Of a stretch of DNA of 64,000 bases, positions 45,981-57,651 are shown in pieces. Within the stretch, counting starts at the first letter, position 1. Every line of letters starts with the position of its first letter. Source of the stretch: a virus. The notes under the pieces were generated by a model. It was given only the letters and a program-made list of their open reading frames with translations. It was not told the DNA's origin and did no database searches. The position numbers were made by a program, and so were the translations under genes. Location of the stretch: positions 157,343-221,342 of IMG/VR virus record IMGVR_UViG_3300022866_000322; one strand, given 5' to 3'.

Positions 45981-46403
45981 ATGTCATGGTTATTTGAATC
46001 TAAAGAAATAGAAGTACTACCAGAAGATTGTGTTGGATTCGTTTATTTGATAACGAATTTAACAAATAACCGTAAATACATCGGGAAGAAGCTTGCACGG
46101 TTTAAAACCACCAAGCCCCCACTTAAAGGCAGGAAGAACAAACGCCGTGGAACAAAAGAAAGTAACTGGCGTGAATATTATGGCTCAAACGACGAACTCA
46201 ACAAAGACATAGAACAACTAGGCACAGAAAACTTTCAAAGAGAAATACTCTACTATTGTAAAAGCAAGGCAGAATGCAGTTATATCGAGGCACGAGAACA
46301 ATTCAGACACAAAGTCTTAGAAACACCACAATACTATAACGGACATATACAAGTCCGTGTCCATGGCTCCCACATTATAAACAAATTAAGTAGTAACAGC
46401 TAA
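45981..46403 (+). CDS. GIY-YIG-like endonuclease (140 aa)
   Basis: GFVYLITN (19-26) and KYIGKK (32-37) form the two halves of a GIY-YIG motif, with a basic stretch (KGRKNKRRGTK, about 49-59), YYGSNDEL, and a candidate catalytic glutamate in CSYIEAREQF (E103 or E106). The family cuts DNA; members include homing endonucleases such as I-TevI and the T4 Seg enzymes. It lies 28 bases after gp46 and directly before a 422-base hairpin-rich gap. Whether it acts on phage DNA, host DNA or as a mobile element is unknown. Confidence 0.75.
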   Translation: MSWLFESKEIEVLPEDCVGFVYLITNLTNNRKYIGKKLARFKTTKPPLKGRKNKRRGTKESNWREYYGSNDELNKDIEQLGTENFQREILYYCKSKAECSYIEAREQFRHKVLETPQYYNGHIQVRVHGSHIINKLSSNS

Positions 46404-46825
46404 CACAGGCTAATCTCGTGTGTACCAAACCTGACAGTAACGTGTGCAGGGACGTAAGACTTGCCGCTACAGCAAGCACTCAATCACTACCCATATGGAT
46501 GAAGACTCTCAATGCTAGAGTTTGATTGTTTGAACAGGATTCAATAAAGCTAAAAAGACGTAGTAGCGATACTACACGTTTATGTAATATGTTAGCGTAT
46601 GTTATATAAATCGCCGTTGTTATAAAGACGGAGCTCGAGGTACCGGACAACCGCCTCTGTAATGCTCTAATGCTAAGTGACTGTTATACTCAGATGAAGC
46701 AGTTTACTTTTTTGCCCGCCCTGGGCAAAGAGTGACCATGTGATCTAGATGAAACGTCTAAAAACATATCATTAAAAAACAAGTTGATGAGTGATAACGA
46801 AATCAACAGACTAACGAAGTTAGTC
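46404..46825 (+). ncRNA. Candidate structured non-coding RNA in a convergent gap (no gene seen)
   Basis: No supportable reading frame fills this 422-base gap between the convergent GIY-YIG gene and the gp26 operon. Local hairpins on the plus strand include 46460-46476 (5 bp), 46505-46521 (5 bp), 46558-46579 (6 bp with GCGA tetraloop plus 2 bp), 46614-46631 (4 bp), 46637-46657 (4 bp plus 3 bp with ACAA loop), 46711-46729 (7 bp, TTTGCCC/GGGCAAA) and 46808-46826 (8 bp). Such a long structured gap stands out in a genome whose genes mostly overlap. No group I intron P7-type core was found. Strand is assumed from the upstream gene. Confidence 0.5.
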
Positions 46826-54988: not shown

Positions 54989-56173
54989 ATGACACAAGCA
55001 CTATTAGAAAGCCGTTGGGGCGAAACAAAAGATGCCCTGTTAGAAGGACTAAATGGCTCCAAGCGTACTACAATGGGAGTTATTCTTGAAAACACCCGCA
55101 AGAGTTTGCAAGAGACCGCTACTGCTGGCTCAACAGCCGCTGGTAACGTTGCTACATTGAACCGTGTAATTTTACCAGTCATTAGACGAGTAATGCCAAC
55201 CGTTATTGCTAACGAAATTGTTGGTGTACAGCCTATGACAGGTCCAGTTGCACAGATTCACACACTACGTGTACGTTATGCTGATAACGCTACATCAACA
55301 GCAGGTGCGCCATTTGATACAAGCGTTACTGCTGGTGACGAAGCACTATCACCATTTAAGATTGCTACAGTATATTCAGGTAGTACTGCTACCGGTCGTG
55401 CTGACAGCACAAGTACACTTGAAGGTACACCAGGTAACAAGATCAACGTCCAGATCTTAAAGCAAGTTGTTGAAGCTAAGACACGTAAGCTATCAGCACG
55501 TTGGACATTCGAAGCCGCTCAAGATGCGCAAGCAATGCACGGCTTAGATATTGAAGCAGAAGTTATGGCAGCTCTTGCACAAGAGATTACAGTTGAAATT
55601 GATCAAGAAGTTCTTGGTTCACTTCGTAGTCTTGCTGGTACTGAGTTCACATATAACCAGGCAGCAGTATCTGGTACAGCTACTTACGTTGGTGATGAGC
55701 ATGCCGCATTGGCAGTTCTTATCAACAGAACAGCTAACTTGATTGCATCACGCACACGTCGTGGCGCAGGTAACTGGGCAGTTGTTTCACCAGCCGCTTT
55801 AACAGTTCTCCAAAGCGCAACAACAAGTGCTTTTGCACGTACAACTGAAGGCACATTTGAAGCACCTACAAACACCAAGTTTGTTGGTACATTGAATGGC
55901 GCAATGAAAGTTTATGTAGACAGCTATGCTGGCGATGCACAGGCAGTTCTAGTTGGTTACAAAGGTTCAAGCGAAGCAGATGCAGCCGCATTCTATTGCC
56001 CATATGTTCCATTAATGAGCAGTGGTGTTGTGTTGGATCCATCAACACTTGAGCCAGTAGTTGGCTTTATGACCCGCTACGGGTACGTAGAGCTCACCAA
56101 TACAGCATCATCGTTTGGTAATGCAGCCGACTATCTCGGGGAAATCGCAGTTTCTAACTTGTCTTTCCAGTAA
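54989..56173 (+). CDS. 23: Major capsid protein gp23-like (394 aa)
   Basis: Recognisable gp23 segments include RVILPVIRRVMPTVIANEIVGVQPMTGPVAQIHTLRVRY (about 59-97), LSARWTFEAAQDAQAMHGLDIEAEVMAALAQEI and GFMTRYGYVELTN. It is shorter than T4 gp23 (521), lacking much of the insertion domain. The N-terminal LQE at 40-42 before TATAG is a candidate gp21 cleavage site, giving a short pre-peptide (T4 cleaves after residue 65). A purine-rich ribosome site (AAAGGAAAAAGGAAAAG) precedes the ATG. A strong terminator follows. Confidence 0.95.
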   Translation: MTQALLESRWGETKDALLEGLNGSKRTTMGVILENTRKSLQETATAGSTAAGNVATLNRVILPVIRRVMPTVIANEIVGVQPMTGPVAQIHTLRVRYADNATSTAGAPFDTSVTAGDEALSPFKIATVYSGSTATGRADSTSTLEGTPGNKINVQILKQVVEAKTRKLSARWTFEAAQDAQAMHGLDIEAEVMAALAQEITVEIDQEVLGSLRSLAGTEFTYNQAAVSGTATYVGDEHAALAVLINRTANLIASRTRRGAGNWAVVSPAALTVLQSATTSAFARTTEGTFEAPTNTKFVGTLNGAMKVYVDSYAGDAQAVLVGYKGSSEADAAAFYCPYVPLMSSGVVLDPSTLEPVVGFMTRYGYVELTNTASSFGNAADYLGEIAVSNLSFQ

Positions 56174-56275: not shown

Positions 56276-56306
56276 TTGACTTAATATGACGGTTAGTGTA
56301 TAAATA
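56276..56306 (+). promoter_or_regulatory. Overlapping sigma-70 (TTGACT-17-TATAAA) and T4 late (TATAAATA) promoter
   Basis: TTGACT at 56276-56281 and TATAAA at 56299-56304 are separated by 17 bases. The same -10 is part of a perfect late octamer TATAAATA (56299-56306). Either polymerase form would start near 56312, exactly at the first base of the riboswitch fold, so the RNA downstream could be made both early and late. Confidence 0.82.
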
Positions 56307-56312
56307 TATATA

Positions 56313-56366
56313 CGTTCAGCTGAGAGGCCGGAAGTAGACTTCATTATTAGTCGAAGGAACGCATTA
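56313..56366 (+). promoter_or_regulatory. Glutamine riboswitch (glnA/Downstream-peptide class), copy 1
   Basis: P1 is CGTTC (56313-56317) with GAACG (56357-56361). P2 is GCT/GGC with a GAGA loop (56319-56328). The conserved CGGAAGTAG is at 56329-56337, a variable hairpin GACT/AGTC at 56337-56352, and the conserved CGAAGGAACGC at 56352-56362. These two conserved blocks in this order are diagnostic of the L-glutamine-binding RNA class known from cyanobacteria and marine phage or metagenome sequences. Confidence 0.9.
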
Positions 56367-56370
56367 TCAT

Positions 56371-56423
56371 CGTTCATCTCGAAAGAGACGGAAGTAGGTA
56401 ATGGTTACCGAAGGAACGCACCT
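56371..56423 (+). promoter_or_regulatory. Glutamine riboswitch (glnA/Downstream-peptide class), copy 2
   Basis: P1 is CGTTC (56371-56375) with GAACG (56414-56418). P2 is TCTC-GAAA-GAGA (56377-56388). Conserved CGGAAGTAG is at 56389-56397, hairpin GGTAA-TGG-TTACC at 56397-56409, and CGAAGGAACGC at 56409-56419. CACC (56419-56422) can pair with GGTG (56439-56442) beside the AGGAGG ribosome site, a possible route to translational control; that part is inference. It is the copy nearest the peptide gene, 25 bases before its ATG. Confidence 0.92.
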
Positions 56424-56447
56424 AACTTTAAAAAGGAGGGTGTTAAA

Positions 56448-56555
56448 ATGACAATGTGGACTCAATATTGTAGACTACATGCACTTGATGACTATCGCAA
56501 GTTATGCATGTTGAAACTTTTGTTGTTGCGTACATTACACAACACATACAAGTGA
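56448..56555 (+). CDS. Riboswitch-controlled small peptide (35 aa)
   Basis: ATG at 56448 to TGA at 56555 encodes 35 residues. A strong ribosome site AGGAGGG (56434-56440) lies 7 bases upstream. The peptide starts MTMWTQYC, is basic overall and probably helical, with a leucine run (LKLLLLR) flanked by charged residues. Short peptides directly after this riboswitch class give the Downstream-peptide motif its name. The function is unknown. In cyanobacteria the related RNA controls small inhibitors of glutamine synthetase, so an effect on host nitrogen metabolism is a reasonable but unproven idea. A terminator follows at once, so this is a monocistronic unit. Confidence 0.8.
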   Translation: MTMWTQYCRLHALDDYRKLCMLKLLLLRTLHNTYK

Positions 56556-56561
56556 ACTTCG

Positions 56562-56585
56562 AGGGGTGTAACTGCCCCTTTTTTT
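56562..56585 (+). terminator. Rho-independent terminator after the riboswitch peptide
   Basis: AGGGGT-GTAACT-GCCCCT stem-loop followed by seven T, 6 bases after the peptide stop. It closes a self-contained promoter-riboswitch-peptide-terminator unit. Confidence 0.85.
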
Positions 56586-56622
56586 ATAACTGCTATTACA
56601 TATTATTTAAGGAGGATCTTGG

Positions 56623-56907
56623 ATGAATACAGCTACAGAAGTAAAGTGCGAAACGCTCAATATCCGCATAGAACCCAAAGTTCGAGATCTAATTGATCGT
56701 GCGGCGAAGTCACGCGGCAAAAATCTCACGGACTTCATACTGGAGTCTGCTCGTCTCGCTGCAGAAGACACTCTGCTCGACCAGGTGATCATGGCGACCA
56801 GCCCAGACGCCTTTGCGCAGTTTCAGGCTCGCTTGGATATGCTACCTAAGCCTAATGACCGTTTACGCAAAACTATGCTCACGCCTGCTCCCTGGGAGCG
56901 TGAATGA
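56623..56907 (+). CDS. Orphan TacA-like (DUF1778) antitoxin (94 aa)
   Basis: The N-terminal ribbon-helix-helix part (LNIRIEPKVRDLIDRAAKSRG, about 12-32, then LTDFILESA) and C-terminal tail (LDMLPKPNDRLRKTMLTPAPWERE) follow the TacA/DUF1778 pattern, whose C-terminus wraps and neutralises a GNAT acetyltransferase toxin. No GNAT gene lies next to it. Base use differs from neighbours: 7 of 11 leucine codons are CTC or CTG and CGC arginine codons are frequent, suggesting recent transfer. AAGGAGG precedes the ATG. It may neutralise a host toxin during infection, or act as a DNA-binding repressor. Confidence 0.85.
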   Translation: MNTATEVKCETLNIRIEPKVRDLIDRAAKSRGKNLTDFILESARLAAEDTLLDQVIMATSPDAFAQFQARLDMLPKPNDRLRKTMLTPAPWERE

Positions 56908-56944: not shown

Positions 56945-57030
56945 CTACTGTTCATATAAATCTTTATATGTTCTTATGCGGAACCAAACCGCGTAGGCCT
57001 AGAACGCCACTTAATTTAAGGAGAAACAAA

Positions 57031-57651
57031 ATGGGAAGACCTATAGCAAAAAAGTTTATTGGCGATGGCGTTGGCAAGATTGCAATTACAGCAGTTAAGT
57101 TTGCAAGCGGCAGCGAAGTTCTTAGCGGTGCAGATATTCAAAGACAAAGAACAGCTAAAAGTTTCGTTGTATCTGACGGAGCTAAAACAGAAACATGTAC
57201 ACTGGTTAACAAGTCAATTGGTGCCTTGGGTGCTAGTGAATTTACCATCAACGTTACCGACAACGATGGCGACCAACAGCAAGTTACCAAGATGACCAAC
57301 AGAAAAGTTTACACTGAAGGTACTACTTGGAAACAGTGGACAAAAGATGCCGACGGCTCAGCATCGGGTGCAGTTCAAAAAACAATCACAGGTGCAACAG
57401 CGGCCAACCCAGTTGTTATTACATCTGCCGGTCACGGACTTGCAAATGGAACTAAAATTTCAATCCGTAAAGTAGTTGGTATGGTTGAGCTTAACACTGA
57501 AACCGGCTATACAGTGGCAAGTACTGCAACTAACACTTTTGCATTATCTGGAGTTGACGGTAGTGGATTTACTACTTACACATCAGGTGGTGATGTAACT
57601 GTTGCGGCAGCAGGTGCAGACGATGTGATAATAGATACACAACAGTCTTAA
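57031..57651 (+). CDS. Virion structural/decoration protein (206 aa)
   Basis: MGRPIAKKFIGDGVGKIAIT is the N-terminal style of small structural proteins in marine myoviruses. The C-terminal part (ITGATAANPVVITSAGHGLANGTKI, then TNTFALSGVDGSGFTTYTSGG) matches a beta domain recurrent in phage virion proteins that pipelines often label E1 FCCH-like. I choose the ATG at 57031 because AAGGAG (57018-57023) is correctly placed; the frame is open to 56968 without a ribosome site. Its strong signals and capsid-proximal position suggest an abundant virion protein. A terminator follows. Confidence 0.75.
   Translation: MGRPIAKKFIGDGVGKIAITAVKFASGSEVLSGADIQRQRTAKSFVVSDGAKTETCTLVNKSIGALGASEFTINVTDNDGDQQQVTKMTNRKVYTEGTTWKQWTKDADGSASGAVQKTITGATAANPVVITSAGHGLANGTKISIRKVVGMVELNTETGYTVASTATNTFALSGVDGSGFTTYTSGGDVTVAAAGADDVIIDTQQS

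Follow-up and report, generated by a model that had tools for sequence, protein, structure and literature searches.

Glutamine riboswitches of type 1 (glnA motif, RF01739) are the closest described relatives of the RNA studied here. Tandem forms are common in this class, with 157 doublets and 4 triplets on record (PMC9481103; see also PMC2864571), and members have been found in the phages Melnitz (OM43) and Mosig (SAR11) and in the cyanophage S-CREM1 (PMC9004378, PMC9964418). In Melnitz, the switch lies beside a two-piece tmRNA, and for the tmRNA and lysis genes glutamine was proposed to report on cell fitness or timing; the word "tandem" is absent from that account, and small peptide genes do not form part of it (PMC9004378). 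Cyanobacteria use the small proteins IF7 and IF17 (gifA/gifB) in place of adenylylation of glutamine synthetase (GS), and a review describes these factors as unique to cyanobacteria (PMC7760959). IF17 is controlled by a type-1 glutamine riboswitch (PMC6316151).

The locus described here belongs to the same riboswitch class and shares the tandem form. It differs from known RF01739 examples in its jumbo-type phage setting, in the short peptide that it precedes and in a covarying hairpin that hides the SD in phage and bacterial leaders. With IF7/IF17 and the Downstream-peptide/DUF4278 genes it has in common a glutamine riboswitch, a small basic protein and the lack of GS adenylylation (PMC6316151, PMC7760959). 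Unlike IF7 and IF17, the peptide family of this locus (family A) occurs in Proteobacteria and their phages, with homology not detected; DUF4278 is carried by some of the other peptide families surveyed. PirA (Ssr0692) of Synechocystis, to which the peptide is likened by description, is likewise small, basic and nitrogen-responsive, and binds PII (PMC8092223). Neither the riboswitch class nor its tandem form nor its occurrence in phages is new (PMC2864571, PMC9481103, PMC9004378, PMC9964418). Apparently new are the wide phage repertoire of peptides behind tandem switches with its capsid-adjacent position, the output stem that covaries across phage and proteobacterial leaders, and a peptide common to phage and Burkholderiales that is linked with loss of GlnE.

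The riboswitch pair beside the capsid gene

The window, by which we mean the whole 64,000-nucleotide stretch analyzed, is the terminal part of a 221,342-bp virus record. An earlier note made from the letters alone had proposed that positions 56276-56585 hold tandem glutamine riboswitches of the glnA/Downstream-peptide class and a short peptide gene, to be given up if no covariance model matched or if the peptide frame was not conserved in related phages. The whole window was scanned with cmscan against Rfam, where RF01739 has a gathering score of 35 bits. Both copies exceeded this value with significant matches, no other RF01739 match was found in the 221,342-bp record, and the peptide frame proved to be conserved in related phages and also in bacteria, so the tandem riboswitches and the peptide gene are confirmed. 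The class assignment stood for its glnA part (type 1, RF01739); membership in the Downstream-peptide class (RF01704) was ruled out by the Rfam assignment to RF01739. The features of the locus are as follows.

54989-56173, + strand: major capsid gene, gp23-like, 394 aa (tblastn, 60-70% identity to jumbo-phage capsids)
56276-56306, + strand: promoter read from sequence, TTGACT at 56276-56281 and T4-late-type TATAAATA at 56299-56306
56311-56365, + strand: glutamine riboswitch aptamer 1 (RF01739; 46.7 bits, E 4.5e-7)
56363-56370, + strand: 8-nt linker ATTATCAT between the aptamers
56369-56422, + strand: glutamine riboswitch aptamer 2 (RF01739; 61.1 bits, E 4.9e-11)
56418-56443, + strand: expression platform, SD-hiding hairpin (minimum-energy fold and covariation)
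56448-56555, + strand: peptide gene of 35 codons, family A, MTMWTQYCRLHALDDYRKLCMLKLLLLRTLHNTYK (frame conserved in phages and Burkholderiales)
~56562-56586, + strand: intrinsic terminator read from sequence, AGGGG..CCCCT and a T run

The arrangement agrees with the mini-operon that had been described as adjoining the capsid gene: a T4-type capsid gene lies upstream, and a strong ribosome site and a short gene (ATG at 56448, stop at 56553-56555) are followed by the gene's own terminator, an equivalent of which is found after the peptide gene in most family A phages. The riboswitch pair starts ~140 bases 3' of the end of the capsid gene, and the TATAAATA box sits a few bases 5' of aptamer 1. 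ATAAATA was present at most 70 nt upstream of 88 of 171 viral riboswitch leaders compared with 16 of 110 bacterial ones; over the window as a whole it was not enriched.

By tblastn, the capsid is related to those of PA5oct, 121Q and Vibrio 2.275.O-type jumbo phages, which are T4-like phages of Proteobacteria. This large aquatic phage is of the T4-like jumbo type, with a probable proteobacterial host. A cyanophage origin was considered and dropped, because the capsid is nearest to Proteobacteria jumbo phages and homologues of the family A peptide occur in Burkholderiales. A Polynucleobacter-1 RNA (RF01718, 93.7 bits) was found at 46398-46531 (+) of the window; the description of that family was based on Burkholderiales and fresh water, in keeping with the presumed host. 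Directly 3' of the peptide gene, at 56623-56907 (+), lies an orphan TacA-like antitoxin gene (PF08681, E 8e-23), for which an adjoining toxin was not identified; most family A relatives have no antitoxin at that site. Two genes past the riboswitch cassette, a freshwater-2 RNA (RF02980, 63.7 bits; 56953-57033, +) serves as leader to a gene whose 206-aa product contains an FCCH-like domain.

Expression platform and tandem arrangement

In the minimum-energy fold, the anti-SD GCACCU (56418-56423) pairs with GGGUGU (56438-56443), and together with an inner CUU/AAG stem this hairpin hides the SD AAGGAGGG at 56433-56440. The same layout was found in 118 of 124 distinct leaders, where the strand starting at the conserved GCA that follows P1 is paired to the ribosome site or to the bases just 3' of it; the mean z of the SD-hiding stem across leaders was -2.9. 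Covariation was assessed against permutations in which the 3' arms were dealt randomly among leaders. Among 101 distinct leaders, pairing was kept in 298 of 303 variable cells, compared with 249.8 ± 3.6 after permutation and a maximum of 263 in 5000 permutations. With each of the 16 distinct arm pairs counted once, 43 of 48 cells were paired against a permuted mean of 35.0. All three variable stem pairs covary, with C-G, U-A, U-G and A-U combinations.

The leader thus carries an expression platform, as expected of RF01739, in the form of the covarying stem. Because this hairpin covers the ribosome site and uses bases that also belong to the ligand-bound aptamer, it argues for a translational ON switch. 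The RNA switch mechanism is well supported and agrees with the ON behavior published for glutamine riboswitches (PMC6316151). At low glutamine, GCACCU just 3' of aptamer 2 would base-pair with the 3' portion of the ribosome site, preventing translation; on glutamine binding, aptamer 2 would close P1 and take the conserved G-C-A into the aptamer, so that the ribosome site would open. Secondary-structure energies alone did not show strict mutual exclusion of P1 and the SD hairpin, and we therefore infer the coupling to the ligand. With pairing and covariation observed directly, an ON switch acting through aptamer 2 is very probable.

Two aptamers are arranged in series in one leader. The linker ATTATCAT contains neither an SD nor a terminator of its own; this 8-mer is the commonest viral tandem linker (25 of 79 distinct linkers) and also occurs in 15 distinct bacterial linkers. 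A pseudo-cooperative arrangement has one platform per aptamer, whereas here only aptamer 2 precedes the output stem, so that two inputs feed one output. Lacking its own output, aptamer 1 could act only via aptamer 2, for example by pairing of its GAACG strand with the latter's CGUUC strand. The sharper or two-input response suggested in the earlier note is plausible, and a steeper response would be somewhat more probable than a response without such an effect.

Distribution and conservation of the peptide genes

Viral contigs were searched with a degenerate DNA pattern matching tandem copies, which located the tandem RNA in at least 115 stretches. The frame that follows it nearly always encodes a short basic peptide, some 26 to 80 residues long. 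Family A, the kind found in the window, has the signature M-x-x-WTxYCR, and family B has MTKYQ...ITDNPFYP; another family consists of DUF4278-type YRG proteins (Pfam match), and further families are present. The families look unrelated to one another. At four loci (L054, L014, L073 and L117), the family B peptide contains an insertion of YRGVRY type that resembles DUF4278, and judged from these sequences the insert possibly links family B with the DUF4278 peptides. In isolated-phage records, no match was found to the leader, peptide A or peptide B, apart from short leader matches in Roseobacter/Dinoroseobacter phages.

The capsid gene lay directly upstream in 45 of the 100 tandem viral loci with enough upstream sequence. 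In a scan for single copies, among the matches listed, this was the case in 20 of 78 with enough sequence. The adjacency persists even where the capsid is only 33% identical to that of the window. Conversely, the cassette was present in just 3 of the 73 closest capsid relatives with enough downstream sequence, which indicates that it is accessory and dispensable.

That this one RNA precedes unrelated peptides in different phages does not point to one target. Together with the late-type promoter, the capsid-adjacent position and the coupling of the glutamine riboswitch to other genes in Melnitz (PMC9004378), it would suit a peptide that serves host takeover and has no link to nitrogen, glutamine then serving as a readout of cell fitness or timing. 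We regard this explanation as distinctly unlikely, because homologous peptides under the same tandem switch are encoded on bacterial chromosomes and their function is hence not phage-specific.

Among bacterial genomes, the tandem pattern was found in SAR11-type and SAR116 Alphaproteobacteria, SAR86, SAR92 and Betaproteobacteria. Among the genes controlled in alphaproteobacterial genomes are an ammonium transporter (amtB) and glutamine synthetase, and other bacterial genomes with the tandem switch encode short peptides of the phage peptide families. Pattern matches in Pseudomonas and Luteibacter were set aside as chance, no RF01739 match being found in the two genomes tested. In marine Alphaproteobacteria (L344, L334, L351 and similar loci), a circularly permuted ATP-grasp gene (PF14403) is preceded, at a distance of 125-128 nt, by a glutamine riboswitch.

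Within one small-genome Burkholderiales family, the family A peptide occurs in TMED22, UBA3031 and a third bacterium; the tandem switch is present in 8 of 17 genomes of that family, at one locus each. Leader, linker and ribosome site of the bacterial version nearly match those of the phage letter for letter. The chromosomal neighbors are ordinary bacterial genes, among them those for a thioesterase, a c-type cytochrome and a substrate-binding lipoprotein (the latter two named from sequence), and they rule out mis-binned phage contigs as the source of these copies. One host-chromosome copy (genome G026, locus L456, 7688-8051, - strand) encodes a peptide close to the phage form and has a phage-like TATAAATA promoter box. 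Its frame runs through a partial duplication of leader and peptide, giving a 72-aa double peptide, and a PII gene (Pfam) lies 4.4 kb away. The features of L456 suggest that the cassette has moved from phage to host, from host to phage or both.

The family A peptide is predicted to form one helix over residues 3-34 (pLDDT 92.6). In phage and host, W4, Y7, C8 and A12 are invariant, and R9 and R28 are nearly so. Non-synonymous change is depleted in the gene, with a pooled pN/pS of 0.51 (pN 0.32, and pS 0.64, which is near saturation). Glutamine riboswitches generally count as low-affinity binders, and the peptide sequence is loosely conserved between lineages; both points would be compatible with an incidental peptide and an RNA that is itself the functional part, for example as a decoy soaking up glutamine or protein. 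The strong SD hidden by a covarying stem, the excess of synonymous change and the four invariant residues make such a decoy highly improbable.

Glutamine synthetase control in cassette-bearing genomes

GlnE is the enzyme that adenylylates GS. As in organisms with IF-type regulation, which do not use adenylylation by GlnE, GlnE was absent from all 8 cassette genomes of the Burkholderiales family; it was present in 7 of the other 9, and the remaining two (G306 and G311) had neither GlnE nor the riboswitch. The association gave a Fisher p of 0.0023, and of 0.035 among genomes <2.5 Mb, for a single family and with statistics that ignore kinship. PII was present in 17 of 17 genomes and GlnD in 7 of the 8 with the cassette, so the absence of GlnE is not explained by general incompleteness. 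The adenylylation loop of GS is changed in the cassette genomes from DKNLYDLPPEE to DQDLYTM[STA]PEE (one REE variant), with the tyrosine that is the adenylylation site retained.

Among further riboswitch genomes, which represent few lineages, GlnE was found in 2 of 30 compared with 80 of 114 in the class background. GlnE loss also marks genomes whose riboswitch controls amtB or GS, and small genomes generally, and it may therefore follow lineage rather than the peptide. Two riboswitch genomes with a different peptide, MTYxxYQWK (G007 and G008; loci L390 and L407), keep a GlnE-like protein encoded by a frame of 504-526 aa, in which the GlnE domain matches once rather than twice as is usual.

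Family A peptides gave no sequence match in Pfam, PHROGs, NCBIfam or the PDB, and none to IF7 (NF052599) or DUF4278. An IF7 sequence, by contrast, was recognized by NCBIfam as NF052599 at 2.7e-36. Because sequence matches to IF7/IF17 and in these libraries are lacking, a role in GS control is put forward as an analogy, in which the peptide would act like the cyanobacterial IF7/IF17.

Taken with the host genomics, these results lead us to a reading that we hold to be evenly balanced: a small regulatory peptide, common to phage and host lineage, would lower GS activity and be made late, under a translational switch that glutamine activates. The peptide, a single basic helix, would reduce GS activity at high glutamine by binding GS or, less likely, PII. 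In the host it would replace the lost adenylylation by GlnE. In the phage it would be used late, as host messages decay, and would hold the balance of glutamate, glutamine and ATP. Judged by the host genomes, some role in nitrogen control is likely, and GS itself as the target is a possibility somewhat short of even.

With the same switch, the peptide might instead bind PII (GlnB/GlnK) or another nitrogen regulator, as does PirA, a basic nitrogen-induced PII binder of 51 aa (PMC8092223). The retention of PII throughout the Burkholderiales family and of GlnD in most cassette genomes, as well as the one host copy near a PII gene, would fit such a partner. That the loss is specific to GlnE and that the loop of GS is altered point to the GS step instead, and we consider a PII binder unlikely.

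With GS preferred as the candidate target, the family A peptide may be a borrowed nitrogen brake. More tentatively, and less probably than not, small proteins under glutamine riboswitches could have replaced GlnE for feedback inactivation of GS in Proteobacteria, parallel to the IFs, with phages carrying such inhibitors late and linked to the capsid gene to set the nitrogen flux of the host. An orphan phage peptide is now tied to a bacterial gene family under the same RNA switch, and a GlnE substitute is proposed for small-genome aquatic Proteobacteria without GlnE. If the peptide inhibits GS, control of GS by small proteins would extend beyond the cyanobacteria, and phages would steer host nitrogen by this means.
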